Shown here piece after piece: positions 1-23,366 of a DNA stretch of 64,000 nucleotides (within the stretch, counting starts at the first letter, position 1; each line of letters opens with the position of its first letter). The translations under genes were made by a program, and so were the position numbers. The notes beneath the pieces are model-generated. The model was not told the DNA's origin and ran no database searches. It was given only the letters and a program-made list of their open reading frames with translations. Source of the DNA: Lachnospiraceae bacterium AC2029 (GTDB taxonomy: Bacteria; Bacillota; Clostridia; Lachnospirales; Lachnospiraceae). The stretch lies in assembly GCA_000703065.1 (NCBI GenBank), contig JNLK01000001.1, positions 992,001 to 1,056,000 on the forward strand, given 5' to 3'.

Positions 1-3000
1 TCGGTAAGCTGTATGCCGCCGAAGCGAAGCGTTGCCATTTCATAATCTCTCTGATTCACAACTGCTTCCGCCTCGATCAATCTGTCCATGGCGTTTTTGC
101 GTTCTTTGCTGCCGTCTCTTTCGGAAACTTCTTTCTCTTCGCTTCCCGCCTCACCGGCTTCGGCTTCAGACGTCAGATCGATTTCTTCCCCGAAGGAGAT
201 CTCCGAGAATTTCAGCGTTCCCTTCTGTTCCTGAAGTCCGGGATGCTCAGCCTCATACTCGATACGCTCATCGTAGTTTGCATCATGGGAATCACGGCTG
301 TCGGATATGTAATCCTCCCATGCTTCCTCTCCTTCTTCTCCGGAGAAGTAGTAATTCTCATGCTCTCCGTTCTCGAACATGTCAACGAAAAGTTCCGGAA
401 CATCAATATGGAAGGAGGTACGTGAGGAGGGACTCATGATGGCAAATGCCTGTCCGCGCTTCGCATTCAGGATGTCCTCCTGCTCCTGCTCATTGATTCC
501 TCCGGCCTTCTCATACAGACGGCAGAGATCATCCATATCATTCGGTGCAAGACCGAATACAAAGCTGTACTGGCACGCATTGATGATCGCCGTGGATTTC
601 CGCGCGATCTCCTCACTGCCCACGAAGTCCTTGATATTCTGGGTGATAACGATCTGCATACCATTATACTTACGGATACGCTTTGCCAGCTGGAACATGA
701 AGTCCAGTGCAACCGGGAACTTGGTATCGATGAATACATGCGCCTCATCGATAACTACAACAACCTTTCGGTTCAGGTTATATTTCAGGTTATAATCACG
801 GTTCTTGATGATCTCATTATCCACATACTTCAGAACCAGAAGCATCTGCGCATTCGCTATGGTCGAGTTCCGGTTGGCCAGAAGGGACTGGAAATTGAAT
901 ACGGAGAAGTTCTCATCCGTTGTGATGGTGGAAGGGCCGTTCCAGATGTTCGCATTTCGTCCGCCGGTGGAGAACTTGGAAATATAATTCACCAGAGAAC
1001 GGAGCAGCTGACGCAGATAGTCGTTGTTCGTTCTCTCGAACTCTGCCAGGACTACGTCATATAGGTCATCAAAGATCGGATAATCCTCGGCATGCAGTCT
1101 GGAGAGATCTGTCTCAGCCGTGATACCGAAGTTCAGATACACACGTTCTACCAGTGAGTTCAGGTACTCGAGAGCGTCCCTGTCGATATCCGGAAGGATC
1201 TGACGGAAGAACTCCTCCAGGAACTGCAGGTGTGTGGCAAAGCTTCCCGCAGGTCCGCCGGTTTCTCCTGCCTCGTCATCGTCCAGTGCGGTGATGATGT
1301 GGAAGGGATTCAGACGTCCGTAGGTCGCATTTCCTACATTGATGATCTTACCGTGCAGGTTATGTGCCAGCTCCGAATACTCGTTCTCCGGGTCCAGGAT
1401 AAAGATTTTGGAATCCTCGGAAGCCAGATTCAGAAGCAGGGACTTGGTGGTATAGGATTTACCGGAACCGGATTTTCCTACGATAACCATGTTGGAGTTG
1501 ACACGCTCGGAATCTCTGCGGAAGAAATTGATAAATACCGGTACTCCGTCAGAGGAGCCCAGCTTCACGCCGCCTTCATCCGAAACATGCGCAAAGATCC
1601 ACGGGTACATTCCCGCGATCGTATTTGTAGGAATACCTCTGGCTTCCTTCAGCATCGGGTCATACGGAGATACCTGGGATCCGATAAAGCTCTGAATCTG
1701 CAGAAAGTCCATGCCGTTCAGCTTCATGCCCGCCTCGGCCCAGGTGTGGCGGAGCGTCTTCTTCAGGTCCGGCACCATGGGCATCAGAGTCTTGAACCCG
1801 TCATTCAACATCGGATCTTCTTTCGTGGCCATCGCATCATATGCCGTGACGTAGATATTCACGGACATCAGCGCCTCATTTTCCTGCTGCAGCGTAACCA
1901 GAAGGGAAGACAGGGTCTCGATATGCTCCTGCAGCTCCAGTCTTCTGGAGTCCACACCTGTGGCATTATAGCGTGCACGCAGTTCTGCCAGAGAACGATC
2001 AATAGCCCGGATGGACTTGGCGCGATCCATGGGCGTGGTCTTGACTATGACCTTACTTCCCGGGAAGGACATCACACCTGCCAACCAGGCATCTCCGACA
2101 GTAGACGGATAACTGATCACCCGCAGATTATGGGTGATCATTTTATTCACTTCTATCCGGCGGGAGGTGATCCTCAGCATTTCCGGCATTGCCCAGTCAA
2201 CCCAATGCTCCTGTGGGATCTCATCGATCTGTCTCTCGTCGAAATCAAGGGTGTTGGAGTACTTCAGGAAAATGGCGAGCCCCCGGTCATCCAGTCTCCG
2301 TACCTCCAGTTCGCCCTGAGCCAGGGAATTGATTGCCTGGTTCATCATCGAATTCAGCTTTCTTCTGTCCCTGTCGAAAAGGACCAGATAGTAGAAGGAC
2401 TCCACAACCATGTTGTCCGTACAGAGATCATCGATCTCGCTGATCCGGGCAAATTCTATCTCGGTCCTGGCCTTCAGCTCATCCTCCGTGAGAAGTCCGC
2501 TCTCATAGGATTTCTTCAGGCTGTCCAGCTTACCGTACTCCATCTCCAGATACCGGTCATACATGATCGGCCGCTGCAGCTTGACGATATTGGCTCCGTA
2601 CTCACCGCTGAGCGAACGGAGGATTTTCCCCAAACACTGCTCTATGGAATTGTCACGCCGGATCTTGGAGAAGAACCGGAATTCCACGGGATCGATCTCG
2701 ATAACCGCGCCGAAATACTGTCCCGCATATTCGATGAACTTATCCTTGATCCCCGTGAAGGGCATAAGGTTGCTGATATCATCATAGTCCGATGTGTTAT
2801 CCTTATTCTGCGCCTTTTTCTTTTTCTTTTGAGCGGTTCGCTCGGCTCTGGCAAGCCAGACGGCATTCTTTTCCTCTTCGGTAGCCGTCTTGCTCTTCAG
2901 GATCCTCTTCTCTTCCTTCAGGATCTCCTTCAGATTCTTCTCTTCTTCCTGTTTCTGCTCCTCCGATACTTCTTCCTTATCCTCCTCATAGAAGGCATCC

Positions 3001-3278
3001 ACCGCCTCCTGCCGGTCTCCGGACAGTCGGGCCAGCGCCTTGTCATCATAGACGCGGGCGTATTTTCTCGGATATGCCTGATACCGGAGCATATACCAGA
3101 AGAAAATGTAGATCGGATTGTCATTCACCCGCACCAGCGTCATCCCGAAAATGCCAGCCACAACCAGTGCGATGATCCATCGATATGGCAGCGATGATAC
3201 CGCACAGAGTGCAGCGATCCCAAGGCCTACCAGTGAGACGATAACATCTGACAGGGTAACCCCTCGGAACAACTCCAT
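1..3278 (-). CDS. VirB4-type type IV secretion ATPase with PrgI-like N-terminus (3' end cut by window)
   Basis: This is the energising ATPase of a type IV secretion system, acting at the inner face of the membrane. The frame is open for 1092 codons from ATG 3278 and runs off the left edge without a stop. Residues 1-80 contain two predicted membrane segments followed by a YxxYPRKY-like stretch, resembling PrgI-family proteins that are usually a separate gene. A charged coiled-coil linker (about 85-165) follows, then the ATPase. Walker A GKSGSGKS lies at residues 601-608 and Walker B VVVVIDEAH ends in D844-E845. It is the last visible gene of the operon that starts at 11546, 57 bases behind the TrbL-like gene. 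The family assignment is firm; the PrgI assignment rests on topology and motif resemblance. Downstream components such as a cell-wall hydrolase or relaxase could lie outside the window. Confidence 0.88.
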   Translation of the reverse strand, partial: MELFRGVTLSDVIVSLVGLGIAALCAVSSLPYRWIIALVVAGIFGMTLVRVNDNPIYIFFWYMLRYQAYPRKYARVYDDKALARLSGDRQEAVDAFYEEDKEEVSEEQKQEEEKNLKEILKEEKRILKSKTATEEEKNAVWLARAERTAQKKKKKAQNKDNTSDYDDISNLMPFTGIKDKFIEYAGQYFGAVIEIDPVEFRFFSKIRRDNSIEQCLGKILRSLSGEYGANIVKLQRPIMYDRYLEMEYGKLDSLKKSYESGLLTEDELKARTEIEFARISEIDDLCTDNMVVESFYYLVLFDRDRRKLNSMMNQAINSLAQGELEVRRLDDRGLAIFLKYSNTLDFDERQIDEIPQEHWVDWAMPEMLRITSRRIEVNKMITHNLRVISYPSTVGDAWLAGVMSFPGSKVIVKTTPMDRAKSIRAIDRSLAELRARYNATGVDSRRLELQEHIETLSSLLVTLQQENEALMSVNIYVTAYDAMATKEDPMLNDGFKTLMPMVPDLKKTLRHTWAEAGMKLNGMDFLQIQSFIGSQVSPYDPMLKEARGIPTNTIAGMYPWIFAHVSDEGGVKLGSSDGVPVFINFFRRDSERVNSNMVIVGKSGSGKSYTTKSLLLNLASEDSKIFILDPENEYSELAHNLHGKIINVGNATYGRLNPFHIITALDDDEAGETGGPAGSFATHLQFLEEFFRQILPDIDRDALEYLNSLVERVYLNFGITAETDLSRLHAEDYPIFDDLYDVVLAEFERTNNDYLRQLLRSLVNYISKFSTGGRNANIWNGPSTITTDENFSVFNFQSLLANRNSTIANAQMLLVLKYVDNEIIKNRDYNLKYNLNRKVVVVIDEAHVFIDTKFPVALDFMFQLAKRIRKYNGMQIVITQNIKDFVGSEEIARKSTAIINACQYSFVFGLAPNDMDDLCRLYEKAGGINEQEQEDILNAKRGQAFAIMSPSSRTSFHIDVPELFVDMFENGEHENYYFSGEEGEEAWEDYISDSRDSHDANYDERIEYEAEHPGLQEQKGTLKFSEISFGEEIDLTSEAEAGEAGSEEKEVSERDGSKERKNAMDRLIEAEAVVNQRDYEMATLRFGGIQLT

Positions 3279-3335
3279 TTTAACTTTTGTTTTACCGGGT
3301 ATCAGTCGCATGTGTTTCTCTGCCCCTTGTTTTTA

Positions 3336-5483
3336 TTACCTGTTATCACCATCGCCATCTCCGTCGTTGTCAACGTTAAGCTGGGCGCCCCGGCCCTCTC
3401 TGCGCGGAAGGTTCGGATCGGCACCCTGTCCGGCACCCGCTCCGGCTCCCTGTCCGCCCTCGCGCTGTTCAGCCAGACGTCTCCGGAGATTTGTAGGCAG
3501 TTCTCTTGCCTTCTCAGCAGCCTCTCTCTTACGATCCAGATCATCCTGCTTCATGTCAACATCGGCAAGTTTTCTTGCCTTGTTGAGTGACAGACCGTCC
3601 TTCTCCATATGATTGTAGGTCGCCTTCATATGATTCAGCTCGTTCTTCTTCAATGCCGAGCCGTCACGATGTGTATGATTCTTGTCCGCGTAATCGATAT
3701 CCGCCTTGAGGGAGTTCATATCTCTCTGACGGCCGCGCTCTCTTGTATGCTGTACGTGTGCAGGGTCCTTGGACTTGTCGTGCTCCTTAACGATACCGAC
3801 AGCTTCTGCCGCACCACGAATGGCGCGTCCCACCGAAGCAAGGCCGGTGGCTTCCGCAGCCTTTCCTGCCCACTTGCCTGCCATGTTCTTTGCCGCACCG
3901 CCGACAGCACCGGCAACCGCGCCACCCACAGCGCTTCCGCTCACGGAATTCAGTGCACGTCCGACAGCACTGCCCTGAACCTCATTTCTTACATCACCGG
4001 CCAGGATCGCCTGATAGCCCGCCTGATCAGCGAGAATACCGGTAAAGATACTGTTTACCTTATTCACTGCGGTGATTCCGCCATAGGTGATGACAGCCTT
4101 GATGATACACTCCAGGATCTTGCTGGAGGAGATGGACAGGCTCGATCCCCACACGATAGGAAGGAACATAAGGAACAGACGCATGGAAAGCACCATTCCC
4201 ACTACACCCAGCAGCTGAACGATAAAGGCTGTCGTCCACTGCTTGAACTTTCCTCCGTCATCCAGCGGCATGGCGGAAATTACCAGCGGCGATGCGATGT
4301 AAAGCGCCAGCAGGTTGAACAGACGTACGGCACAGGTCACGATAATGACCAGCATTTCCATCAGTATGGCGATGGAGATCACATATACCAGAATATAGTT
4401 CATATATGCGGGACTGGGATTGAATGCCGCCTTCACGTCATCCCACTTATAGATACTCTTCTCTCCGTAATAGAACGGCTGTCTGACACTGTCAAAGAAA
4501 TCCGGTTTGTAATTATATGCGGAGTTTCTTGCCGCAGCCTGATCTCCGACGGTCCCCATGGTACCGATCAGGAAGATGATACGATCCATCGGAACAACCT
4601 CCGTGTCCTTGGTTTCCATATCGACCTTCCGCTCGTATGACTTCAGAACCATCATCGTCGGATTCGCCCGCAGGATGTCCATGGCGTTCAGAAGCGCATT
4701 TGTAAGACCATCGTCATAAGCGTCCAGCATGGCTTCTTCCCTATAGTCATAAGCCGCCGCCAGTTCTTCCATGACGCTTTGCCAGGTAGGTACGACCTCT
4801 TTCTTATCGTTGTATGAGACGTAATGGAAGTTGAAGACTCCCTTCTCCGCCAGGAACTGCAGATCTCCCCGAATGTCATTGTAACAGGCGTTCAGGTTGT
4901 ACCGCGATCGCCAGGACGGATTCAGGGAATAGTTTCCTATGGTATTTATGACTCGCCCCATGGCTGCATACATCTCATCCGTAAAGACGATCTTGTTATC
5001 ATCCGCAACAACGTTGTTATTGGTGATGGCCTCACTGACAGACCTGGTCAGAACGTTCGTCACAGACAGTGCCACGATCATGATCGCATTCATTCCTACG
5101 ATCAGAAGGATACTCTTCAGAAGATTTCCGATGATACCGCCAAGAGTCACTCCCTGCTGCTTGTCCCGAAGATCTCCGATCTTCCGGACGACGGCTATGA
5201 TCGCAAAGGCAAAAGCAAACATGATACCGATTATGGCTATCCCGGTATAGATCCCACGTATCGCACCATGATTAAAGAACACATCGATCAGGGTCGTATC
5301 CTCGGTATTGTAAGTCACAGTCCTTTCGCCGGTGAAGACCATCATGGAATCCTCCACCAGCTTCAGAATTCTGAGAATTACCGTCTCAATGAGGTATAAC
5401 AACCTGTAGACCAGGTTCTCGAGCAGGGATTGAAACCAGTCTTTAATTTTATCGATCGCATCGTTGAAAACGTTGTAGAACAT
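3336..5483 (-). CDS. TrbL/VirB6-like polytopic type IV secretion channel protein
   Basis: Predicted inner-membrane channel component of the secretion system, 715 residues. The N-terminus has an amphipathic start and hydrophobic segments near residues 30, 85-110 and 125-150. A long soluble loop (about 165-365) follows, then a second cluster of four or more membrane segments (about 365-490). After these comes a Gly/Ala-rich stretch and a highly charged cytoplasmic tail that ends in a Gly-Ala repeat and an acidic DGDGDGD run. This layout is typical of TrbL/VirB6 proteins, which are poorly conserved in sequence, so the call rests on topology and on the position between VirD4/VirB4 genes. GAGGATT precedes ATG 5483. 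The tail repeats are probably unstructured. No catalytic motif is visible. Confidence 0.72.
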   Translation of the reverse strand: MFYNVFNDAIDKIKDWFQSLLENLVYRLLYLIETVILRILKLVEDSMMVFTGERTVTYNTEDTTLIDVFFNHGAIRGIYTGIAIIGIMFAFAFAIIAVVRKIGDLRDKQQGVTLGGIIGNLLKSILLIVGMNAIMIVALSVTNVLTRSVSEAITNNNVVADDNKIVFTDEMYAAMGRVINTIGNYSLNPSWRSRYNLNACYNDIRGDLQFLAEKGVFNFHYVSYNDKKEVVPTWQSVMEELAAAYDYREEAMLDAYDDGLTNALLNAMDILRANPTMMVLKSYERKVDMETKDTEVVPMDRIIFLIGTMGTVGDQAAARNSAYNYKPDFFDSVRQPFYYGEKSIYKWDDVKAAFNPSPAYMNYILVYVISIAILMEMLVIIVTCAVRLFNLLALYIASPLVISAMPLDDGGKFKQWTTAFIVQLLGVVGMVLSMRLFLMFLPIVWGSSLSISSSKILECIIKAVITYGGITAVNKVNSIFTGILADQAGYQAILAGDVRNEVQGSAVGRALNSVSGSAVGGAVAGAVGGAAKNMAGKWAGKAAEATGLASVGRAIRGAAEAVGIVKEHDKSKDPAHVQHTRERGRQRDMNSLKADIDYADKNHTHRDGSALKKNELNHMKATYNHMEKDGLSLNKARKLADVDMKQDDLDRKREAAEKARELPTNLRRRLAEQREGGQGAGAGAGQGADPNLPRREGRGAQLNVDNDGDGDGDNR

Positions 5484-5547: not shown

Positions 5548-6531
5548 CTATCGTACGCGAAGTTTCTTTCTTGTAACGATAAGAGCGATCGCAATTCCCT
5601 GGATCAGAAGAATGACCGCAAGGATAAAAAGAACCGCATTGAAATTCAGATACAGCAGGATCCGAAAATCCTTCTCAATGGTATTCCCGGCGATATCGGT
5701 GACCACCACATGATAGTCTCCCGTCTCGGATACCTTATATTCCTCATCCATACCCACGACCTCATCCTCAAAAACGATTGAGATCCGGTCGCCCTCCTTC
5801 ATCCCGGCGATGGTAACCGGGCCGCGGGCTTCATCATTGTCATCCAGCCCGATGAACAGGATGTCCGGCGGAGTATGATCGACCTCCAGCTCCAGCTTAT
5901 ATTCAGCGCCGGTGGCCGCGCATACATAATTGATCACATAGTTGCCTTCCTGCATCATGTCCACGGTTCCGGCGCCATGTGCCACGGGCGTACCGTCAAC
6001 GGTCACACTCTTTACCGTAAATCCTGTAGGAAGCACGTATCGTGTCAGCTTACCGGTTATATCGTTTACGATCCGGAAGGTAAGAAGCTGTGTCTCCGTG
6101 CTGTTCGTCCAGGTCACCACCACATAGGTTCCTTCTTCGGTGATCTCGGACGGTATCTCCTCCATGGGTTCGCCGTCCTTATAAACCGCCAGATTACACT
6201 CTCCGTCCTTCGAAAGGACCACACCTTCGGTTACTACCATTCCGTCTGCAACACTGCAGAGGATCCTGGCCTTCCCGGCCTTATAAATAAATCTGCGGGA
6301 GAAGCTGTTAAATGAAACCCCGTCTCCGATACGGACCTCCTCCGACGAGGACGTCTCGCTCTGTACGGGATCTCCCGTATAAATATCCAGTGGTCCGGTG
6401 TAGTCGATATACTGCAGATCCGAATCTGAAGAAACCTCCTCGGTATCGTCTTCAGGATCAGCGAAGACGGTCATACCGGGAAGCAATGCTCCACACATGA
6501 TAAATATAAATGTGATAACGAGTTTCTTCAT
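5548..6531 (-). CDS. secreted, C-terminally membrane-anchored Ig-like protein of the secretion operon
   Basis: An unrecognised 327-residue surface protein. It has a signal peptide ending near VFADPE, an acidic Ser/Asp/Glu-rich stretch, and beta-rich Ig-like modules, the last with the DxxGNT pattern of bacterial Ig-like domains (about residues 215-295). A final hydrophobic helix is followed by RKKLRVR, so it should be tail-anchored facing the outside. The upstream in-frame TTG at 6537 is less likely than ATG 6531, which has AGGAG at good spacing. A 16-base tandem duplication of the ribosome-binding-site region (6530-6561) overlaps the VirD4 stop codon. Its place between the VirD4 and TrbL-like genes implies an accessory role in the envelope part of the machine; this is inference. 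Confidence 0.7.
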   Translation of the reverse strand: MKKLVITFIFIMCGALLPGMTVFADPEDDTEEVSSDSDLQYIDYTGPLDIYTGDPVQSETSSSEEVRIGDGVSFNSFSRRFIYKAGKARILCSVADGMVVTEGVVLSKDGECNLAVYKDGEPMEEIPSEITEEGTYVVVTWTNSTETQLLTFRIVNDITGKLTRYVLPTGFTVKSVTVDGTPVAHGAGTVDMMQEGNYVINYVCAATGAEYKLELEVDHTPPDILFIGLDDNDEARGPVTIAGMKEGDRISIVFEDEVVGMDEEYKVSETGDYHVVVTDIAGNTIEKDFRILLYLNFNAVLFILAVILLIQGIAIALIVTRKKLRVR

Positions 6532-6559
6532 TCTCAACTCCTGTTATTCTCGACTCCTG

Positions 6560-8578
6560 TTATGCAGATTCGTCCTCGTCCGACTGGAGTTCGCCGAGAA
6601 CGGTCTCGTTCCGGACATCCAGATCATAGAACACCTCATCCGCCTTGAACATATGACTCCTCAGTTCATCCAGATCCATGCGCCCCATCTGATAGTAAGG
6701 GCACTGATAGCTGGGAGTATACTTCGTCCGAAGCGGGAAGTTACCGAAGGTAACGATGATCGCGTTTCCGGTGCTTTCCTTGTTGTTCAGCATCTGCAGC
6801 TCGGACGGATAGATCAGCGGTCTTACCTGGCTCTGGGTGGAGAGGTTCAGATCGCCGGCTCTCGCACCGATCGCAGAGGATGTGGATGTGGTCTGTACCG
6901 TCATATTTCCGCAGAGCTTGGAGAACTCTTCACAGGTTCCGATATCATTGGAACCGATGAACATCTTCATACCGCAGTTGGACTTGACGATGTCCGCAAC
7001 CTTCTCTCCGTATACGTTGTTCAGCTGAGAGTAGGACTGTACCACCATGTTGAACCAGATCTTTCTGGAACGACCTACGGTGATCATCTTGTCGAACTTT
7101 TCGATCCTCGGCATATTACCGAACTCATCGAGAATGAAATATACATTTCTCGGGAGGGATAGATCCTCTCTTGCGGAAGCAACCTTGATCAGCGCCTTGT
7201 ACATACAGAGTACGAATACGGCCGCCAGTCCGTGACGGGTATCCTTCTCGTCCGGAATCTTCATAAACAGCGCCGTAGGCTGATCCGCGAATTTCTCCGC
7301 CTGTACGTCGGTGGCGGAGGTAAGTCCGCAGAGTCCACGGTCGTTGAACATATTCAGTTTGTCAAAGGTAATGGACATGTAGGAGGAAAGCGTGGTGTCC
7401 GCAGCCGACATAACCTGACGTGACAGGGTATAGGCCTGGGACAGCTTGCTGCGTCCGTTGAAGTAGTTCTTCAGAGCTGCAAACTCATCCTCCGAATTGG
7501 TCAGGGCCTTGTTGATATTGAAGAAATTGAACTTCTCCTTCGTCATGCCCAGACGCTCGTCCTCGGAATCCTCCAGCATGGCAAGTGCCGTAGCCATGAT
7601 GATGGAACGTGCGCCCTTCTCCCATACGGGATCCTTATCATTTTCGATGGGACAGATAACGGAGATCAGATCGTTCAGATCTTCATACATCTCGTCATAG
7701 AACTTCTGCCGGGTAACAGCCACATCATCCTTGCAGTGGTCGAGATCGGAATAGGCCTGTCCTCGCCATTCCACCCAGTACTCGCCTTCTTCGGCTTCCC
7801 CGTCCATCCGTTTCAGATCCTTATAATCGCTCATCCGGTCCTTATGGAGCTTGATCTCCTTTCCGGCCTGAACATACTCCTGATACAGATCCCAGATCCC
7901 CTCCAGCGGATTCCACCTGGAAGAGGTGTAGGTGTCACGCAGATCCAGAAGCAGCACCTTGTAGCCCCGGGACTGCAGATACTTAGAGTGCAGGTCGAAA
8001 AGCTCACCCTTCGGGTCCGTCATGATCATGGAACTTCCTGCAGAGGTTGCTGCCAGAAGCTGGATCATGGGGTTGATGAAGGTGGTGGTCTTACCGGAAC
8101 CGGTAGCACCGATGACCAGCGAATGGGCGCCTGCCAGGAAATTCACCTGCAGGTGATTCTTTTTATCCAAAACCGCACGTACCGGAATCCCGTCCTGCTT
8201 TACATTTGCCAGATCCTCATAGACGTGCTCCGGGAAATACTTATCTCTTTCCTTCTCCGTCAGGAACCGGCTGTTCTCAAGAGAGCCCTTGACCACATCG
8301 ACCTTACCCTTCCGTCCCAGGAGCTTTCCCGCCTTCTCGAAGATATAAAAGTCCAGATTGTTTCCGGTCAGGATCCAGATGATCATCATCACCAAAGACC
8401 CAAGGAGTCCGAACAGCCATGTCTTCAGTTCAAAAACGATTCCGAAACTGATCTCCCATTCCTGATCATTCAGTGTGGCAGGAAGCATGATCGCGATCAC
8501 ACGGATCACAACTCCTGAGATCAGGGTGACCAGAACGAAGAGTGCGATATGTAAGATAAGTTTCTTTTTTTTATCCAT
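6560..8578 (-). CDS. VirD4/TraG-type coupling ATPase of the type IV secretion system
   Basis: Coupling protein that selects substrates and feeds them to the secretion channel, 672 residues. Two N-terminal membrane segments (about 8-33 and 52-71) are followed by the motor domain, with Walker A GATGSGKT at 157-164 and Walker B FILDEFGN near 480-486. The TraG/VirD4 motif around GRSRKIWFNMVVQS follows. The C-terminus is acidic. ATG 8578 has GGAGGAGG upstream. The gene ends within the ribosome-binding-site duplication of the next gene, so the two are probably translationally coupled. In conjugation this protein receives a relaxase, but no relaxase gene is present here. That leaves the large proteins at 14672-23276 as candidate substrates (inference). 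Confidence 0.92.
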   Translation of the reverse strand: MDKKKKLILHIALFVLVTLISGVVIRVIAIMLPATLNDQEWEISFGIVFELKTWLFGLLGSLVMMIIWILTGNNLDFYIFEKAGKLLGRKGKVDVVKGSLENSRFLTEKERDKYFPEHVYEDLANVKQDGIPVRAVLDKKNHLQVNFLAGAHSLVIGATGSGKTTTFINPMIQLLAATSAGSSMIMTDPKGELFDLHSKYLQSRGYKVLLLDLRDTYTSSRWNPLEGIWDLYQEYVQAGKEIKLHKDRMSDYKDLKRMDGEAEEGEYWVEWRGQAYSDLDHCKDDVAVTRQKFYDEMYEDLNDLISVICPIENDKDPVWEKGARSIIMATALAMLEDSEDERLGMTKEKFNFFNINKALTNSEDEFAALKNYFNGRSKLSQAYTLSRQVMSAADTTLSSYMSITFDKLNMFNDRGLCGLTSATDVQAEKFADQPTALFMKIPDEKDTRHGLAAVFVLCMYKALIKVASAREDLSLPRNVYFILDEFGNMPRIEKFDKMITVGRSRKIWFNMVVQSYSQLNNVYGEKVADIVKSNCGMKMFIGSNDIGTCEEFSKLCGNMTVQTTSTSSAIGARAGDLNLSTQSQVRPLIYPSELQMLNNKESTGNAIIVTFGNFPLRTKYTPSYQCPYYQMGRMDLDELRSHMFKADEVFYDLDVRNETVLGELQSDEDESA

Positions 8579-14671: not shown

Positions 14672-17600
14672 CTACAGATTTAATTTGTTTACCCGCTTTG
14701 ACTTATGCTCCTCACCGGCCGGGACATCCTTGGATCTCGGCCCCGTTATCTCCGGCTTTTTGAAAGCATCCGCTTTATCCATAGCCTTCACCTTTTCCGT
14801 TACAGGTCTCGACTCAAATCTTACCAGTTCAATGGAGAGCTCCATATCCCGTACGGTAGGAGGCGTCTTTCCCGGAACACCGACGATCTTCTCGATAAAG
14901 AGTTCCGGCGAATAATTGATATATCCGTTTCCTCTGATATAATCACGCAGTCTTCCGCGGATCTCACGCTCCTTACCCGGATCACTCAGCGTCTTGCCCA
15001 CAGCGCTTTCCCCGAGATATTTCTCATCCAGTGCATTCAGCGCAATGTTCTTTGCGTCCCGAAGATTCCCGGCGCGTTTATTATACAGATTCTCCGCACG
15101 TCTGTACTGATTCACGATACTCTTCTCATTCTGGTACTTCCGATACGCAGCCTTGTCCCTGTCGAACTTATTCTTCTGCTCCGGATCCTTCGGAGCCTTC
15201 CCGGAGGTATAGATCGCCGTCTCCTGTTCGATGGCAACCTCCATTTTCAGCTTCGGATCCATTTCCTCAACCTTAACTCCCAGGCTCTTCGCCTGCTCAC
15301 CGATGGCCGTCTGATGCTTTGCCAGAAGCTTTGCCTCATAGAATTCCACCTGTCTCTCCATGGCTTCAACGATGTTCGGCGCATTCCTCAGTATCTCGGA
15401 ATTCATCTTCTTTTCAGCATCACCCTTCATCTTCTTCACGGTGGCCGTATAGTTCTTCCGTGACATCTTGGTTCTGTCGATCTGTTCCACATCCATTACG
15501 AGCGATTCGGTCACTACCTTTGTAGCACCTGCATAAGCGTCGGAGGGTTTCATGATCCGGAGGATCTCCTTATCATACGCATCCTTCAAAGCCTTCGATT
15601 CTCTCTGATCCCGCGTCAGAATCGCATTCCTCTTCGTTGTATACTCTGCGTTATCCTTCAGATCCTCACGCATCCGTGCACCGTTCTCGCCCAGATACGT
15701 TTTCATCAGAAGCTCCACATAGTTGCGTTCCTTCGTCCGTATTCCCCATTCATCCGGAGCGGCCTTCAGGCCCTCCTTTGCCATACGATCAGCTGCCGCA
15801 GCATTAGCAGCCTCGATCTTCTGATTCTTCAGGTGCTTCAGCATCTCCGGTTTAAGTCCCGAATTCAGCGCCAGATCCATAAGCTCACGGTCACGGTCCA
15901 GCATTCCCCACATACGGTGGCCCATCTCGGCACTGTAAAGCCGCAGATCCGAAGACTCCCTGCCATGTCCGATAGATGTCATATTCTTAATTCCCTCTGC
16001 GATCAGCTTCGCCAGCGGCTTTTTATCTCCTCTGTGGTATGCCTTCAAAGCCCTGTTCGCAATATCTCTGGCTTTGACGATGCCCGGCGTTACCTCTTCC
16101 ACGGAAACCGCCTTTCTCTTTGATCCGTCCGGTTCCTTTGCCGGCACACCCGCTGCCGCCCGAAGGATATCCATCCTGCGGTATGCATGTGCTTCTTCTC
16201 TGGTAAACCGCTTTGCAGGATCATCCCTGCGGGATTCCGTATCGCAGTCCATGGTGGTGGATGCCGCAGCCGCAAGTGCCACGAAATCCTTATTTGATAT
16301 CATATCCGTTTTCTTTCCGGAACCGATGGCCTTCGGTCTCCGGGAGATCGGCTTGATGTTATCAAGTGCCTTAACATCGGAGAACTCCTTCAGGGAAAGC
16401 CGTTCCATTCCGAAAAGGTCTTCGAGCCTGTCGAGTCCCTTTCGGGCTCCCTTCGGAATGTAGATCCGGTCTTTGAAGCTGGCCTTCTGATTCTCAGCCG
16501 CATCTGCGGCATTACTGACCAGTACATCCTGAAACTCATTATAATCCGCCTTCCAGTCTTCATTTGCCTGAAGAATGCCTGCCGTCTTACTCTTCGGTCT
16601 CAGACTCATCTGCATTTCGGAAAGATTCTCAAATACATCCAGGACCGTTCTGATCCTCGCCTGCTCGACATCCTTATTCCCCGGATCATTTTTCCGTCTG
16701 GGATCCTTTTCCATTTCCTTCTGCTTGCTGGAAAGATATGTCTTTGCAGCATTTCTCGCCCTGTCAATGGCATTTACCATCTTCCGCGCATCCTCCTCCG
16801 TAAAAGGATGATTCGGATCCGCTGCAGCCGCCTTTTCAGACGTCCGCTGAATGATGTCCATCTGCCCTAAGAGAAGCTTATACTCAGGAGTTGCACCCCA
16901 GAGATACCAGTGCTTATTCGCATTCAGATTCGTCGCCAGGCGGTCTGCAGTCTCCTTGATCCCCGAGAATTTATATTTACTCTTCAGCTGTCTGTAAAGC
17001 TCCTTCTCCTTGATCTCCAGATTCTGCCTCAGGGCATCCATCCGCTTTTCAGGATTCTTTACCAGGGTTCGCTCGAACTCTGCAGAATGATCCTTTCCTC
17101 CGATATCGAAGTCATCCTTACTCCTGCGTTCCGCCTTCGGCCGGGTATCATCCACCATCTTCTCCGGCTGCTCACTGCCCTTTTCTCCTTCTTTCTTCGG
17201 CGGCTCTCCTACGCTTTGTTCCGGACCCTTCTTCTCTCCGGACGTCTCTGCCCCACCGGGCTTTCCCTGCTCCTTTTCCGATTCCGATTTCGGTCCGGGA
17301 TCCGGATTCGGCCTGGGATTCGGATTCGGCCCGGGATTCGGATTGAGGTTCGGATCCGGTGCCGGATTCGGGATCTGATTGGGATTCCGGTTCTGGAAAT
17401 CCGGCCGCACCCTTTGCTGCTCAAACTCAAGCAGCCTCTGATGCATGGCAGGCTCTGCCAGCGCCGGGTCTGTCTTGCCCGGCTTGATATGGTAGAGATC
17501 ACGGTCTGCATCGACCAGCTTCTGCTCTGCCTGTGCATCTCTGTTGTCAGCCATGGTCTTCAGATATTCCGCATCCAGCTGCTTCGGGAGATAGACTCTC

Positions 17601-19339
17601 TCCATGTACTGAACCCCGGCGGAACCGTACCGGTTTACACCCGCGGGCGCAAAAACGTTCATCTCGTCATCTGCCGGACGCATGACACGTACGCCCATCC
17701 GGTTCAACGGATGGTCTCCCACATCTCCTCCCATGGCACGCATGGATTCCGGCTGCTGTGTTACGGAGCCGTCCGGATTCATATATACATACTCACTGGG
17801 AACCCCGTGGATCGTCTTGTGATCATTTGCCAGTTTGATATCGGAAAGCCAGCTGATCTCCACGGAGTGCGGTCTGTCCCTGAAAAAGGAATTTGTGACC
17901 AGATCCTCCAGGCTGATGTCATGAGACTCATCCGGATTTCCCGTTTTATTGTTCATTTCCAGGGAATCCTTATATCTTACGATATCCCCGTTAATACCGG
18001 TGATCGTGATATAATGTCCCGGCATAAAAAAGCTGACCGGAGAACGATCCTCCCTGATCGCATGAAGGATCTGCTTCTTCAGAAGCTGCACCGTATTCTT
18101 CACATACTGATCCGAGGAGTAGCCGTCCCGTTCATTCGCTACGGTAAAGGGCTGGATCTCCAGGGAACGCATCATGGAATTCGGAGCATACTTCAGGACG
18201 GAGTCCGCATTTTCCACAATACTCTTGTAGTCATCCGTTCCATAGTTGTAATCCACATCTCCGTCCCTCAGAACCACCTCGTTCTGCGGGATGTTCGGAC
18301 GATAGAAACGGATATCCTCCTGCGTGATATCGCCCATTCCACGGCTCTTTGCCATGAGTGCACCTGCACAGGACCAGCAGCCGCAGCCGCTGCTCTGATG
18401 TGCGGTCTGATGGATATCCAGCTCAGCCGCATCATCCCGGTCCACCAGAAGATTCGGACGTGTACCTATCTCCTGTCTCGCATCCATCTGCTGCCGTGCA
18501 TTATCCTGGATCTCCTGGACCTTCACAGCGGTCTCCCTGTGCTTCTGAAGCATAAAGCGGTCACGATAAGTCAGCTTCTCCTCAGGATTCTGCTTGTTAT
18601 TGTCCTCCTGAAGATACTGATCGATCGCATTGATATCTCCTGTATGCTTGATCCTGAGATCGATGTTCGAATCGACGGACGGATACTCATACATACGCGG
18701 GTTCGTCTGAACAGCCTGCTGATATTCATTCCTGATCTGTTCCGGAGTGCTGTTGATATACATCTGCAGCGCCATATCCTCCGTGATATTCGGATCGGTG
18801 GTAAACATTCTGGCATATTCATAGAAGCCCGGCCATTTCTGCGGGGCATTTGCATTCGCATACTGACCCGTCCGGATCTCCGCATCCGACTTGAAGGTTG
18901 CCGCCGGCAGCGTAAGGCCGTCATCCGCACGGAAATGCTTCACGATCTCCTTATCGTGATTCAGGATCCTCTCCGCCTCCCGGAAGGGGCTTGCTTCCTT
19001 CCCGTTCTGCAGCTTCTGCGACGGAAAGAGACTCTGCTTCATGGCCGTAAAGGACTGCGAAACATAATCATAGTATCCCTTGAGTTCCTCCACGTCCTGA
19101 CCGCTCAGGATCTTAAACGCACCCTTTTTGTTCTTTGAATACAGCGTATTCACACGGTTCTGAAGGATCGAAACGACCTCCATCGTGCTTTCCGCCTGAT
19201 CAAGAATATCCTTTTCCTTCTTAGCAGCATCTCCCTGCAGATTCGCACTTCTGTTACGTCTTTTCTGAATATACGCCGATATCTGTGCTGTCTGCTTTTG
19301 CAGTTTTGTAAGCGTATCAAGTGCTTTATAACTATTCAT
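14672..19339 (-). CDS. giant cytosolic protein with papain-like Cys-His-Asp region; candidate secretion substrate
   Basis: A 1555-residue protein of unknown function without signal peptide or membrane segments. The start is ATG 19339 behind GGGAGG; the in-frame TTG at 19381 lacks a site. Residues 1-310 are helical. A cysteine-rich segment follows with C319, C321-W322 and C324, then GHYITITG with H442 and RYKD with D458. The Cys-Trp, His, Asp order and spacing match papain-fold proteases, including Trp after the cysteine. A proline/asparagine-rich linker (about 646-686) separates this from some 850 residues of charged, mostly helical sequence. The C-terminus is basic (HKSKRVNKLNL). It is the last gene of a three-gene operon sharing its promoter box with the secretion operon. 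Role as an effector is inference; the protease call is moderate. Confidence 0.72.
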   Translation of the reverse strand: MNSYKALDTLTKLQKQTAQISAYIQKRRNRSANLQGDAAKKEKDILDQAESTMEVVSILQNRVNTLYSKNKKGAFKILSGQDVEELKGYYDYVSQSFTAMKQSLFPSQKLQNGKEASPFREAERILNHDKEIVKHFRADDGLTLPAATFKSDAEIRTGQYANANAPQKWPGFYEYARMFTTDPNITEDMALQMYINSTPEQIRNEYQQAVQTNPRMYEYPSVDSNIDLRIKHTGDINAIDQYLQEDNNKQNPEEKLTYRDRFMLQKHRETAVKVQEIQDNARQQMDARQEIGTRPNLLVDRDDAAELDIHQTAHQSSGCGCWSCAGALMAKSRGMGDITQEDIRFYRPNIPQNEVVLRDGDVDYNYGTDDYKSIVENADSVLKYAPNSMMRSLEIQPFTVANERDGYSSDQYVKNTVQLLKKQILHAIREDRSPVSFFMPGHYITITGINGDIVRYKDSLEMNNKTGNPDESHDISLEDLVTNSFFRDRPHSVEISWLSDIKLANDHKTIHGVPSEYVYMNPDGSVTQQPESMRAMGGDVGDHPLNRMGVRVMRPADDEMNVFAPAGVNRYGSAGVQYMERVYLPKQLDAEYLKTMADNRDAQAEQKLVDADRDLYHIKPGKTDPALAEPAMHQRLLEFEQQRVRPDFQNRNPNQIPNPAPDPNLNPNPGPNPNPRPNPDPGPKSESEKEQGKPGGAETSGEKKGPEQSVGEPPKKEGEKGSEQPEKMVDDTRPKAERRSKDDFDIGGKDHSAEFERTLVKNPEKRMDALRQNLEIKEKELYRQLKSKYKFSGIKETADRLATNLNANKHWYLWGATPEYKLLLGQMDIIQRTSEKAAAADPNHPFTEEDARKMVNAIDRARNAAKTYLSSKQKEMEKDPRRKNDPGNKDVEQARIRTVLDVFENLSEMQMSLRPKSKTAGILQANEDWKADYNEFQDVLVSNAADAAENQKASFKDRIYIPKGARKGLDRLEDLFGMERLSLKEFSDVKALDNIKPISRRPKAIGSGKKTDMISNKDFVALAAAASTTMDCDTESRRDDPAKRFTREEAHAYRRMDILRAAAGVPAKEPDGSKRKAVSVEEVTPGIVKARDIANRALKAYHRGDKKPLAKLIAEGIKNMTSIGHGRESSDLRLYSAEMGHRMWGMLDRDRELMDLALNSGLKPEMLKHLKNQKIEAANAAAADRMAKEGLKAAPDEWGIRTKERNYVELLMKTYLGENGARMREDLKDNAEYTTKRNAILTRDQRESKALKDAYDKEILRIMKPSDAYAGATKVVTESLVMDVEQIDRTKMSRKNYTATVKKMKGDAEKKMNSEILRNAPNIVEAMERQVEFYEAKLLAKHQTAIGEQAKSLGVKVEEMDPKLKMEVAIEQETAIYTSGKAPKDPEQKNKFDRDKAAYRKYQNEKSIVNQYRRAENLYNKRAGNLRDAKNIALNALDEKYLGESAVGKTLSDPGKEREIRGRLRDYIRGNGYINYSPELFIEKIVGVPGKTPPTVRDMELSIELVRFESRPVTEKVKAMDKADAFKKPEITGPRSKDVPAGEEHKSKRVNKLNL

Positions 19340-19381: not shown

Positions 19382-21577
19382 TTACTTCGGCTTCTTTGCG
19401 GCCGTCGCCACCTTCTTGGAATCTGTCTCTTTACTCTTCACGGCTTCTTCGGCCTTCTTTTTCATTTCAGCCAGATACTTTTTCCTCGTGATCCCGTAAC
19501 GCCTGCTTAAATGATTGATACCGACATTCTGGATATCCAGATGCTTCGGCGTATTGATATTATGCTCGACACCTCTGGCGATATTAATGTCCCGTAACAT
19601 GCCTCTTAACCGCACATCCGAGCCCACATCCGTCTCGGAATCTCTGTGAATGAGACTCATGGCATCCAGACAGCTGTTGAAACGGTCCATGTCATTCTGA
19701 ACCCTTTCACTGGCATCCACACCTCCGAATACCTTCATCCTGCCTTTTCCGCGCATATATTTCACTGCGGCATTCTCAATCTCTATATTTGCCTGTATAT
19801 AGTCCTTGTCTTTTGCTTTCTTCGGATCCAGCCTGTACGCCCGGTTCACCGCGTTTACAAATGCCTGGTAATCCGGCGTCACAGCCCTGGGGAATTCCTC
19901 CACGGTCATGTCGATGGATTTCTTCAGCATGCCCATATGGATCTTATAATTTTCTCTGTTGGCAGCAGGGATCCCATACAACTTCCGCTCCTGTTCAACC
20001 GCAAACTCCACTGACTTGGCCGGATCCATCAGCGCCGTCTCCAGGTCCTCCTTGTCCATGGCCCAGATACACAGTGTATCCTTGATCTTATCTGCCATCT
20101 TGTGGATCTTATCCACATTGAAGGATTCCTTGCTGTTCTGTACCACATTTGCAGCCAGAACCCTTGCCAGGCTGTCCTGCATCTTCTCCACGGGTTCATC
20201 TATGACAAAATATCCCGTATGAAGAATACGATAGGATTCAAAGGATTTTGGTAGTTCCTTCTTCACTCTGGGAAGAGTCGCCTTCACCGCCCGGATCTTC
20301 TCCTTCAGGGCTCTTTGTTCCTCCTGACGCTTCACATCCTCTTCGGCGCTTTCCCGAAGCGCATCCATAAGCACCAGCCTGTCTGATTCCGTCTTCGCTG
20401 TGGAATCCTCCGGCAGCTTAATTTCCGGCATGGCAGCCTTCCTCGCGGCAGATCCGTCAAGGACGCTCTCCAATACCTCCTGATTCCTCTCCAGTGCCTG
20501 CTTCTTCGCCTTCCGGAGCTGCTCCTTCGCCTTCTTCTCTTCCAGTTTCTTAAGTGCTTCCGCCTTCTTCTTCATTTCCGCGGCAAGCTTTTCCGCGTCC
20601 TGTATCTTTCTTCTTTCGAGCGCCGCCTCATTTTTCTTCTTCTTCTCGGCAAAATCAACCTGCTTTTTTATCTCGGCCTGTCTCTTCCTGAGTTCCTGCT
20701 TCTCGAGGGCGTCAAGGGAATCCTCAACCTGCCGGACCTCCTCATCACTGACCGTGTGATCTGCGATCTCCGGATCTGCTTCCTTCATCCTCCCCGCCGT
20801 AGCGGATCTTTGTCCCATGGTCATATACTCGATGAAGTGATCCTTCGTTATTTTGCCCTGTGCCTTCTGATTTACCTTCTCATCAGCAGGCCTTGCCGGC
20901 TGTTCCCGGAAGATCACATCCTCCACCTTGCCGGCCTCTGCTGTTTTATTGTCATCGACGCCGTACCGGGCGCCGCGCCGCATCAGGAGCGCAGCAGCTT
21001 CATTGATGGTCTTTCCTCCGAGACCTTCCAGAGCATATCTTCTTCGTACGGCCTTTTCGGAGTCAATAATAACGGTTTTCCCATCCTCCACATCCGCAGG
21101 GAATGAATATGCCTTCTTGATCGTATCATAAAGCCCGGAAAATGCGGTCTTCAGCTTTGCAGCTCCACCGATGCCGTTCCTCCACATGCAGTCGATGATC
21201 GTATTGACCACCTTCAGTTCCTTACAGGCCTTCTTCATGCCTTCCGGATCCGTATAGTCAACCTCCGGCAGTCTGTAGTTCTTCAGGGTATTCATGGCCT
21301 CCGCATAATCCTGGGCAGGCAGTATGGATTGTTTTGCTGCCGTCGGATTTGTACCGGAATTAATAGATTTCTGAAATGCATTCAGTTCCCTATTCGGATT
21401 CTCGCATATTTTCAGTATTTCATCCAGTTTAAACCCGCGGGAGCCGGCCAGCCAGATCATAAAATCCCCTTCGCCGGTAGGATCCAGTCCCTTCCGTAGG
21501 AACTCCGAATCCGTATTCTCGAAGATCTTCCGCCCCATGGAATCCAGCTGTTCATTTGTAAAACTAAAGTTCGGCAT
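19382..21577 (-). CDS. large coiled-coil cytosolic protein; candidate secretion substrate
   Basis: A 731-residue protein that I do not recognise. There is no signal peptide or membrane segment. Residues 270-400 form a long Glu/Lys/Ala coiled coil with many KKK and EEK runs. The rest is charged and mostly helical. The last 30 residues are strongly basic (repeated KKK, ending KKPK). AAAGGGGG precedes ATG 21577, and the gene lies 22 bases behind its upstream neighbour. Its stop codon is 42 bases before the preferred start of the next gene. It shares operon, size class and basic tail with its neighbours, which suggests functional equivalence rather than sequence homology. No enzymatic motif is visible. 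Confidence 0.72.
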   Translation of the reverse strand: MPNFSFTNEQLDSMGRKIFENTDSEFLRKGLDPTGEGDFMIWLAGSRGFKLDEILKICENPNRELNAFQKSINSGTNPTAAKQSILPAQDYAEAMNTLKNYRLPEVDYTDPEGMKKACKELKVVNTIIDCMWRNGIGGAAKLKTAFSGLYDTIKKAYSFPADVEDGKTVIIDSEKAVRRRYALEGLGGKTINEAAALLMRRGARYGVDDNKTAEAGKVEDVIFREQPARPADEKVNQKAQGKITKDHFIEYMTMGQRSATAGRMKEADPEIADHTVSDEEVRQVEDSLDALEKQELRKRQAEIKKQVDFAEKKKKNEAALERRKIQDAEKLAAEMKKKAEALKKLEEKKAKEQLRKAKKQALERNQEVLESVLDGSAARKAAMPEIKLPEDSTAKTESDRLVLMDALRESAEEDVKRQEEQRALKEKIRAVKATLPRVKKELPKSFESYRILHTGYFVIDEPVEKMQDSLARVLAANVVQNSKESFNVDKIHKMADKIKDTLCIWAMDKEDLETALMDPAKSVEFAVEQERKLYGIPAANRENYKIHMGMLKKSIDMTVEEFPRAVTPDYQAFVNAVNRAYRLDPKKAKDKDYIQANIEIENAAVKYMRGKGRMKVFGGVDASERVQNDMDRFNSCLDAMSLIHRDSETDVGSDVRLRGMLRDINIARGVEHNINTPKHLDIQNVGINHLSRRYGITRKKYLAEMKKKAEEAVKSKETDSKKVATAAKKPK

Positions 21578-21599: not shown

Positions 21600-23276
21600 T
21601 CATTTCTTCTTAGCTTTTGTCAGTTCCTTTATCGTCTTTTTTACGTTCTTCGCTGTTTTTACCCGTTCTGCATAGATCCTCTTTGCGACGCCGCGTTCAA
21701 AGTCACATGCCAGGAACCTGCATACGTTCTCTCTGACCTTCTCTCCTTTTATCATCGGATCCACGATCTTTCGGAACGTCTTACTCTCGGCAAGTTCCTC
21801 CGACATAGTCTCAAACGTCCCCTGATTGATATGGTTTTTGATCTCATCAAAATAAAACCTCGGTTCTCCTTCTTTCCTGCGCATATCATCGGAGATCAGC
21901 TGATGTATTACCAACGCGGCCAGTCGCTCCCGGATCAGCGGAAGCCGGTCTTTTTCGACATTTTCCTGATCATCCAGCTGTCCCAGCAGATCCTGAAGCT
22001 TCTCAACCGCCCAGACCGAGGTATTGGACGTGAGGTCTCCCTTTCCTTCCACGAGAGCCTTCTTACGCTGCTCCAGCTCCACCGGCGTCAGTTCCTTATC
22101 CGCACGCATGCCCCGCTTCGCAGCCATTTGTTCCATCCGCTGCAGCTTGGCCAGAGCCCCCTTATGCAGTCTCACCTCATCACTCTCAACAAGGACCGTG
22201 TCATCATCCTTCGGCAGCTGCCGATAGACGTACCACCGTTCCATCTTCCTTCGGAGCTCATTGTTCTTCTGAAGGACAGAATCCCTTTCCATCTGCCTTT
22301 CAATGGGAGAATACATCATAAGGGATTTCTCATACATCATCATGACCGTGGTATAGTCCTTCGCCCCCGAATCCATATCCATGGCCTGCTTCATCTTCTC
22401 CTCGCCAAAATCCCGGATCTTCTTCAGAAGCGCCTTCTCACGCTCCACCAGTTCGGGAGTAAACCCATTTCCCTTCTCAAAGCTGCTCTCTCCCAGTATA
22501 TACTTTGTCTGCAATTCCCTGGTGATCTTCTTCAGATCATCAACCTCGGCCATCACATCCGTGAAGAACCGGCGGTCCTCATCCCTGATCTCGTCACCCT
22601 CCGGGGAAATGAAATGATCCCTGACATATGCACCGGTGATCGTCTCCACCATCTCGTAACCGTTCTGGCGCTTCAGGAACTTACGGAACTGCTCTTCATT
22701 CTGATCGAAGTCATCTCCAAGCTTCAGGCTGTAAAAAGCAAAGGTCCGGGACATCATCCGTTCGTACTCCGCCCGGAAGTCCTCCTCCTCTCTTTCCAGC
22801 CGGTTCGGGTCTTCCTTCGCCATCTTCTGCAGTTCCTCATCCTTCAGGATGTCATCCACATCCTCCCTCTTGGTGAAACGGAAAATGTCCTCGGCAAAGA
22901 TCGCATCCGCCACGGAATTGAAGAGATCATCAAATGCCGCTGTCTTCTTCTCCTCCCGCTTCAGATATTCGGACTTCATGCGGAGATTCTCATTTACCGC
23001 TCCGACCATCATGACAAGCCCGATGAGCTTGTTGATGGCACGCCGCTCCTCTTCGGTCCTGGCCTTCTGCATCGACACCTGTATCTCTTTCTTTGCCGAC
23101 TCCATCATGCCGATCTGCCGGCTGACCCAGGCCATCTCCTTCTTCGCCCGCTCCGCAGCTTCGTCTTCGGAATGCTCCGCTTCGTACTTAAGCTTTCCCA
23201 GCCGGTCCTGCAGCTGATAGATGGTTCCATCTATGGATTCCAGTATTTTTTTTGCATCTGCTCTTCTACTTCCCAT
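21600..23276 (-). CDS. coiled-coil cytosolic protein; candidate secretion substrate
   Basis: A 558-residue unrecognised protein, first gene of the operon. ATG 23276 has GGAGGG six bases upstream; the in-frame TTG at 23282 would overlap that site. Almost the whole sequence is charged and helical, with coiled-coil character at residues 15-110 and 270-380. It has no export signal. The C-terminus is lysine-rich (TIKELTKAKKK). The promoter carries the same 18-base box as the type IV secretion operon. Homology to the two following proteins is not obvious by eye, although all three share low complexity in charge pattern. Function is unknown; delivery by the secretion system is inference. Confidence 0.72.
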   Translation of the reverse strand: MGSRRADAKKILESIDGTIYQLQDRLGKLKYEAEHSEDEAAERAKKEMAWVSRQIGMMESAKKEIQVSMQKARTEEERRAINKLIGLVMMVGAVNENLRMKSEYLKREEKKTAAFDDLFNSVADAIFAEDIFRFTKREDVDDILKDEELQKMAKEDPNRLEREEEDFRAEYERMMSRTFAFYSLKLGDDFDQNEEQFRKFLKRQNGYEMVETITGAYVRDHFISPEGDEIRDEDRRFFTDVMAEVDDLKKITRELQTKYILGESSFEKGNGFTPELVEREKALLKKIRDFGEEKMKQAMDMDSGAKDYTTVMMMYEKSLMMYSPIERQMERDSVLQKNNELRRKMERWYVYRQLPKDDDTVLVESDEVRLHKGALAKLQRMEQMAAKRGMRADKELTPVELEQRKKALVEGKGDLTSNTSVWAVEKLQDLLGQLDDQENVEKDRLPLIRERLAALVIHQLISDDMRRKEGEPRFYFDEIKNHINQGTFETMSEELAESKTFRKIVDPMIKGEKVRENVCRFLACDFERGVAKRIYAERVKTAKNVKKTIKELTKAKKK

Positions 23277-23313
23277 TATCAACCCTCCAAACCCAGGTTA
23301 ACATGCTAAGTTG

Positions 23314-23347
23314 ATTGTATCATCTTTCAGATAACAAAAGCGCAACA
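23314..23347 (-). promoter_or_regulatory. promoter of the large-protein operon with the same 18-base box
   Basis: On the minus strand TGTTGCGCTTTTGTTATC (23330-23347) is followed after exactly 10 bases by TACAAT (23314-23319), 38 bases before ATG 23276. All 18 bases of the box match the secretion-operon promoter, whereas the flanks differ. This argues for a bound regulator rather than a recent duplication. Confidence 0.78.
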
Positions 23348-23366
23348 AAATAAGATCAGGTCACGC

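Follow-up and report, generated by a model that had tools for sequence, protein, structure and literature searches.

A chromosomal type IV secretion locus with candidate protein cargo in Lachnospiraceae bacterium AC2029 and its relatives

Gene content of the locus

The window analysed here is a stretch of 64,000 nucleotides, positions 992,001–1,056,000 of the single 3.86-Mb chromosome of Lachnospiraceae bacterium AC2029. Its left end holds, on the minus strand, an operon for a type IV secretion system (T4SS) with genes for a pilin, an exported protein of 777 amino acids (aa), VirD4, an exported single-pass protein, a TrbL/VirB6-like protein and VirB4. A two-component block (kinase, membrane protein and regulator; 11669–14533) separates this operon from a second block at 14672–23282, also on the minus strand, which encodes three signal-less proteins of 1,569, 731 and 560 aa. 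Judging from the gene set, a promoter box with its regulon, the modular build of the candidate cargo, a link between one C-terminal module and the machine, and no PF03432-type relaxase nearby, we consider it very probable that the locus is a chromosomal T4SS that gave up DNA transfer and would now be a dedicated protein translocator of monoderm gut bacteria. The features are as follows.

1..3311 (open reading frame, ORF, 3–3311), minus strand: VirB4 ATPase, N-terminal 1,103 of 1,536 aa in the window (PF19044, 7.8e-16)
3336..5483, minus strand: TrbL/VirB6-like polytopic channel protein (NCBIfam NF045848, 126.6 bits, cut-off 90; PF19597, 0.003, below cut-off)
5548..6537, minus strand: exported single-pass protein with tandem immunoglobulin (Ig)-like domains and a C-terminal transmembrane anchor (predicted fold)
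6560..8578, minus strand: VirD4 coupling ATPase (PF02534, 3.5e-54; CD1115 family, 293 bits, cut-off 250)
8617..10950, minus strand: exported 777-aa protein, machine-associated surface component (signal peptide judged by eye)
11106..11546, minus strand: T4SS pilin (PF18895, 1.6e-10; Mbov_0395 pilin family, 42.7 bits, cut-off 40)
11627..11643, minus strand: promoter box GTTGCGCTTTTGTTATC of the T4SS operon, before the pilin gene, TATAAT 10 bp downstream
11669..12919, minus strand: sensor histidine kinase (PF06580, 1e-15), relatives in many T4SS loci
12940..13656, minus strand: small polytopic membrane protein, encoded between the kinase and regulator genes, with relatives at many T4SS loci
13733..14533, minus strand: response regulator with receiver (PF00072, 1.9e-22) and weakly matched winged-helix domain (PF00486, 0.006, below cut-off)
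14672..19339, minus strand: candidate effector 1, 1,569 aa (about 1,555 aa from the first ATG), with helical N-terminal region, papain/C39-like region at about 320–548, shared central module at 811–945 and tail charge +4
19382..21577, minus strand: candidate effector 2, 731 aa, with C-terminal module CT2 (residues 416–710) and basic tail, +5
21600..23276, minus strand: candidate effector 3, 560 aa (about 558 aa), first gene of the effector operon, tail charge +10
23330..23346, minus strand: promoter box GTTGCGCTTTTGTTATC of the effector operon, before the 560-aa gene, TACAAT 10 bp downstream

VirB4, a VirB6-like channel and a VirB2-type pilin, the set by which the T4SS superfamily is recognised, lie within one operon, and the VirD4 coupling-protein receptor is there too. 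A preliminary description of this DNA had named VirB4, VirD4, TrbL-like and pilin-like genes in one operon, which the Pfam and NCBIfam matches bear out. The two unfamiliar exported proteins that it listed in the operon are indeed present as the Ig-repeat and 777-aa proteins, and the two-component system that it placed between the operons is the histidine kinase and response regulator at 11669–14533. The extent that it gave, 1..23350, falls short on the left, where VirB4 and the cluster continue beyond position 1.

Full-length VirB4 measures 1,536 aa, its gene extending left past window position 1; the protein has a long, very acidic C-terminal tail, is weakly PrgI/VirB3-like at its N-terminus (PrgI 0.037) and scores 543.6 bits against NCBIfam NF045975 (the Mbov_0397 family), under the cut-off of 590. 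The pilin likely starts at the ATG at 11546, while the ORF as called begins at 11645 (11106–11645). The Ig-repeat single-pass protein is a conserved part of the machine, with 76 ORFs across 80 fetched loci; its AlphaFold model (mean pLDDT 84.5) retrieves Ig tandems in Foldseek with a best E of 6e-7 and a TM-score below 0.3. A VirB8 identity for this protein (5548..6537) was considered and is not backed by the predicted fold. Relatives of the 777-aa protein adjoin VirD4 in other genomes. Left of the window the cluster continues with a 1,950-aa exported surface protein (PLAT 1.4e-6, CBM56 2.8e-5). Also encoded there are small proteins, a SpoIIE phosphatase, an anti-sigma-like kinase and a helical protein of 514 aa whose tail is basic. 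On the other side, right of the effector operon, the window holds a group II intron with a reverse transcriptase/maturase (24954–26704, minus strand), and a single ORF of 3,459 aa occupies 46372–56751 on the minus strand.

A shared promoter box and modular candidate cargo

The 17-bp box GTTGCGCTTTTGTTATC occurs exactly only twice in the window, ahead of the pilin gene and ahead of the 560-731-1,569-aa block, in line with the preliminary description, which had put three giant signal-less proteins under the promoter box of the secretion genes. When 3 mismatches were allowed, the window still gave just 2 boxes against 0.08 expected, and 2 of 100 shuffles also gave 2. On the whole chromosome, 21 sites with at most 3 mismatches were found against 5 for the reversed pattern, and 9 of the sites have at most 2. 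Behind six of these 9 lie the T4SS operon, the effector block, the gene of the 1,950-aa surface protein, a pair of genes for proteins of 687 and 952 aa, and genes for kinase-like proteins of 870 and 762 aa. A -10-like TAnnnT, which lay outside the search pattern, stands at a single fixed offset at all 9, and one site with 3 mismatches lies ahead of a 536-aa paralogue of the 731-aa protein.

Three relatives carry 24, 7 and 19 boxes with at most 2 mismatches (total 50), against 0, 1 and 0 for the reversed controls. We examined 40 of the 50, most of the other 10 lying in loci already covered. The -10 is found at the same offset in 36 of the 40 sites, compared with 0–7 at 19 other offsets. The first ORF has at least 400 aa and no transmembrane segment at 26 sites, and at 23 its tail charge is also +2 or more; at one site (L321) no ORF lies on the box strand. 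Large ORFs of this kind, 23 of 40 behind a box, make up 4 of 101 in a rough control consisting of all ORFs of at least 100 aa from other parts of the window's genome (Fisher 5e-12). In genome G330, boxes stand immediately before effector-3-like, effector-1-like and 1,739-aa surface-protein genes. Altogether, these data support a regulon defined by the box and rich in large signal-less proteins, and, as judged from the promoter, co-regulation of cargo with the machine.

One way to view the box is as a direct repeat of 11 bp (GTT...GTT) adjoining an extended -10, a layout that suits an activator of the SARP/OmpR kind. The response regulator of the window (13733..14533) is a candidate reader of the box and may be such an activator. 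One regulon member that we cannot explain is a VOC-like protein gene (named by eye), which lies directly behind a good box (L026:15141–15611, minus strand).

The large regulon proteins combine the lack of signals with many charged residues, basic tails and a modular build. Tail charge ranges from +3 to +10 in 9 candidates of the window's genome, compared with -6 to +5 in 16 control proteins (p 1.5e-4); two further candidates outside this test, a 2,181-aa protein and a third kinase homologue, have tails of +5 and +8. Of the 30 large proteins of the regulon or cluster that were scanned, the majority match no Pfam family significantly; neither do the CT2 and CTG modules in the bearers scanned, and PHROGs gave no match for any of the three large proteins of the window. 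Effector 3 homologues adjoin effector 1 homologues in L107, L109 and G330. An ABC-3C defence role was also considered for the 560-aa protein and rejected, the weak CTD11 match (PF20277, 9.6e-5) being below cut-off and no ABC-3C partner being present among the scanned neighbours.

Within the C39-like domain of effector 1, C321 and H442 are invariant in 4 of 4 members, with D or N at 458; the region has no Pfam match and no credible PDB sequence match, and its motifs suggest a papain/C39-like cysteine peptidase. The domain is fused to different C-terminal parts in different genomes. A kinase-like domain in other regulon proteins has invariant D-R-H-x-x-N and I-D-N-D columns in 6 of 6 members, each of which matches PF00454 at E 0.1 or better, the first above cut-off. 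It matches a FAM20C structure chain at 1.9e-5, and its closest solved kinases are from animals. The catalytic motifs DRHxxN and DND thus point to a PI3/PI4-kinase or FAM20C-like fold. At the other end of the proteins, CT2 stops 0–39 residues before the C-end in 18 of 20 ORFs. In a wider protein set, 28 members have CT2 and 11 have CTG, and Y-G-x-x-R-A is found in the last 45 residues of 14 of the 28. As far as sequence can tell, the candidates carry the C-terminal module and charged tail sought in effector cargo, with CT2 or CTG near the C-end and basic tails. A 2,181-aa signal-less protein ending in CTG lies at L028:1613–8158 (minus strand), beside large signalling genes and on the strand opposite a box.

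The distribution of CT2 and of the kinase and C39 types was followed across 397 genomes of the family, VirD4 being scored as present at E 1e-120 or better. This T4SS is found in 19 of them, with VirD4 60–83% identical in the 18 other than the window's own, one of which gives only a partial match. CT2 occurs in 8 genomes, all within the 19 (hypergeometric 5e-12), and some genomes have at least six copies among the matches listed, across several contigs. The kinase type occurs in 24 genomes, 13 of the 19 with the T4SS against 11 of 378 others (Fisher 7e-14), and the C39 type in 12, 9 of them among the 19. The earlier expectation that homologues of the large proteins always sit beside this ATPase set therefore holds for CT2 (8 of 8) and fails for the C39 (9 of 12) and kinase (13 of 24) types.

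Protein translocation and its rivals

Several observations weigh against a dedicated protein translocator. The kinase type is found without this VirD4 in 11 of its 24 genomes and the C39 type in 3 of 12; among the 11 kinase-only genomes, six have remote VirD4 matches (25–30% identity) and five none at the threshold. In 7 of the 12 VirD4-less carrier genomes, which we fetched, giant soluble proteins are present with no VirD4 or VirB4 profile match nearby, so that C39 and kinase domains are able to function in the absence of this machine or together with a different one. SpoIIE or anti-sigma genes lie nearby in 5 of these 7 genomes, and the C39-/kinase-like proteins there have tails of -5 to +11, only 5 of 17 reaching +2 or more. 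The association tests take genomes as independent, and the query profiles came partly from positives (G000, G002 and L120 for CT2; G000, G002, G330 and L183 for the kinase; G000, L109 and L120 for C39); with the query genomes left out, CT2 gives 6 of 6, and the kinase 10 of 16 T4SS genomes plus the same 11 others. For a VirB1 hydrolase or a VirB8 wall subunit, both members of the six-gene core of Gram-positive T4SSs, Pfam gave no match among the cluster proteins and NCBIfam none among the 10 proteins scanned. Mycoplasma integrative and conjugative elements (ICEs), the nearest family match of the core, do transfer DNA. In 2 of the 20 CT2 ORFs the module lies farther from the C-end, at 164 and at 217 residues, the second of these ORFs being truncated where the stretch ends. 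The idea of one C-terminal signal domain common to all cargo was rejected: CT2 and CTG do not align and show no detectable relationship (hhalign probability 1%), so that no universal signal emerges. Three of the 9 good boxes on the chromosome precede neither machine genes nor genes of large proteins and are followed by a VOC-like protein gene, by small genes, or by a strand on which no gene lies. TAnnnT stands at the offset in 2 of the 12 sites with 3 mismatches and is absent from 10, which are therefore probably chance matches. Finally, neither the third kinase homologue (L255) nor the 2,181-aa protein is preceded by its own box. The initial proposal of a protein-delivery T4SS with co-regulated large substrates is favoured by the relaxase, regulon and CT2 tests, as far as these go; judged by the refuting condition that came with it, the C39 and kinase homologues in genomes without VirD4 are a partial exception.

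Two observations concern genomes of this latter kind. In L350–L353 (G180:C1:120001–200000), with no close VirD4, about a dozen giant soluble proteins, including C39-/kinase-like ones, lie beside SpoIIE and anti-sigma genes; this array is possibly a sister system with another exporter. Near C39-like giants in G041 and G357, a 617-aa protein (L359:11694–13547 and L361:16107–17960) has the same length and the same first 25 residues in both. The protein is reminiscent of phage-tail-like injection loci; Pfam gave no match for either copy, and PHROGs none for the one scanned.

The locus might instead be a conjugative or formerly conjugative ICE of the mycoplasma kind, whose relaxase is unrecognised or lost and whose large proteins are element cargo or DNA-transfer helpers. 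The TrbL and pilin proteins do score above cut-off in NCBIfam models named for mycoplasma ICEs, with VirB4 just below, VirD4 matches the conjugal CD1115 model, and there is a TraX-like gene downstream of SpoIIE. Among curated families, those of the mycoplasma ICE core (Mbov_0395/0396/0397, MMCAP2_0565/0566) come closest to the pilin, the VirB6-like protein and VirB4; for that core a review states that VirB1 and VirB8 homologues are absent, and none were found here. The search of whole genomes for relaxases was limited to the PF03432 kind, with MOBT, MOBV and others sought only via a Pfam scan of 31 proteins from the cluster and its neighbourhood, including genes outside the window. That scan, however, found neither relaxase nor integrase, and no direct repeat of at least 18 bp flanks the locus in the flanks compared, which were those of the window's genome only; both results answer the check left of position 1 that had been proposed at the outset. 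GC is even throughout the window. A 16-sequence profile for PF03432-type relaxases had no match beside T4SS loci in sets of 472 and 917 neighbouring proteins, which overlap, some genomes occurring in both. On the window's chromosome such relaxases lie at 512, 621 and 2,274 kb, and the T4SS at 984–1,004 kb, the nearest being more than 350 kb off. In two sets of T4SS genomes, some of whose assemblies are incomplete, 4 of 8 and 9 of 25 have no PF03432 relaxase anywhere; among the 16 of the 25 that have one, 8 were compared, with one relaxase contig each, and all 8 contigs differ in length from the T4SS contig. A search for plasmid carriage returned 3,212 plasmid records with a coupling-protein match, all below 60% identity. 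Unlike mycoplasma ICEs, the system here is chromosomal, recurs in the same order across genera, has no integration module that we could find, and comes with giant surface proteins and a dispersed cargo regulon. Cargo genes are scattered over the chromosome under one promoter, and an ICE would leave unexplained the tight link of CT2 to the machine. The relaxase, integrase, repeat and GC results disfavour an ICE or plasmid remnant, and we regard this explanation as very improbable.

Alternatively, the large proteins could be cytosolic and merely co-regulated with a T4SS that moves something else, as the box before a VOC-like protein and short genes and the C39 and kinase homologues without the machine would allow. 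The confinement of CT2 to T4SS genomes (8 of 8) and the basic tails argue against it, and the same C39 domain on different C-terminal modules is expected of substrates rather than of housekeeping proteins; this explanation is improbable. A translocator aimed at other bacteria, delivering interbacterial toxins, seems less remote and is still unlikely. Gram-negative T4SSs deliver toxins between bacteria, as a review describes, and the gut carriers live amid dense bacteria. Against it, a small co-directional ORF lies within 60 bp at only 3 of 27 large regulon genes, so that immunity genes do not accompany them regularly; the kinase-like domain, which is recognisable, is similar to solved kinases of animal origin; and Pfam found no known toxin domain in the 30 large regulon or cluster proteins, most of which match no family.

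Related systems, hosts and possible targets

Bartonella VirB/D4 effectors (the BID-domain Bep proteins) and Xanthomonas X-T4SS effectors join variable N-terminal activities to a common C-terminal module and a charged tail, and are recruited by VirD4. The candidates described here have the same layout of variable N-terminal part and C-terminal module, the likeness to BID being one of description; unlike those effectors, they are larger, belong to a monoderm host and end in modules, CT2 and CTG, without a significant Pfam family. Legionella Dot/Icm serves many dispersed effectors, some with eukaryote-like domains, through one machine. That machine belongs to another T4SS class and a diderm envelope, and more than 300 effectors are reported for it, compared with at most tens of candidates per genome here. 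The T4SSs of Patescibacteria, proposed to be non-conjugative (PMC12102498), are likewise monoderm, chromosomal and mostly without relaxase according to the parts of that source used here, in which no cargo is named; candidate cargo, a promoter and signal modules accompany the present system. Whether Gram-positive T4SSs include dedicated effector translocators is a long-standing question, and the Streptococcus suis 89K T4SS is apparently the first such translocator, as a 2025 review presents it (PMC12857230). 89K is an island that is also transferred by means of this T4SS, and the substrate named in the review is a subtilisin-like protease; here we found no transfer genes and many large signal-less candidates. 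Titles and abstract openings, with preprints and most subscription journals outside the scope, yielded no publication on the present T4SS and cargo system.

An alignment of VirD4 confirmed 199 relatives in named genomes, and counts of loci and habitats rest on the best 80, which were fetched. The carriers of these 80 belong to Lachnospiraceae, Ruminococcus, Pseudobutyrivibrio, Oscillospiraceae and a small number of further groups. Cultured carriers include the gut isolates Pseudobutyrivibrio sp. YE44, Lachnospiraceae bacterium C6A11 and Eubacterium ruminantium FB3002, which are not known as pathogens. Many of the 80 loci, across genera, share the gene order VirD4, Ig-repeat protein, TrbL, VirB4. 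A second architecture was seen in five genomes (G046, G361, G114, G161 and G111; L089–L098), with two TrbL-like genes, a VirB4 of about 900 aa and two Ig-repeat-like proteins. Among the record titles, which were available in truncated form, 18 of the 80 name a ruminant gut site or a rumen co-assembly, a count with no background frequency behind it. Another 31 carry RUG, Tb.RUG or RUI isolate identifiers, which we take to be those of rumen genome catalogues, and the remaining 31 have neither. The rumen is rich in ciliates and fungi. Butyrivibrio, a relative, is described as enriched among ciliate-associated bacteria (PMC6079354).

As a dedicated protein translocator, the system may work as follows. 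The two-component system would sense a cue, and its regulator would bind the one promoter box and activate machine and cargo together, including cargo genes at many genome sites under the common box. VirD4 would capture the large cytosolic proteins by their C-terminal module (CT2 or CTG) and basic tail, which position and charge suggest as the signal. VirB4 would then power passage of the cargo through the VirB6-like membrane channel, and contact with the target cell would be made by the pilin, the giant surface proteins and, on the wall side, the Ig-repeat protein. We lean towards eukaryotic targets because immunity-like neighbours are few and the kinase-like domain is, among solved structures, nearest to animal kinases; such targets would be at hand in the rumen. 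It is possible, and we put it forward tentatively, that rumen Lachnospiraceae and relatives inject tens of giant modular effectors, among them kinase-like and papain-like ones, into ciliates or anaerobic fungi; the system would then parallel Dot/Icm on the Gram-positive side and help them to survive grazing or to live in or on these hosts.

The analysis points to a specific machine, together with a promoter from which its cargo can be listed and candidate signals at the C-terminus of that cargo. Some of the gut bacteria concerned are cultured, and the question of effector translocation by Gram-positive T4SSs thus becomes directly testable. If the target is eukaryotic, the system would also open a molecular route to understanding how rumen bacteria cope with protozoa.

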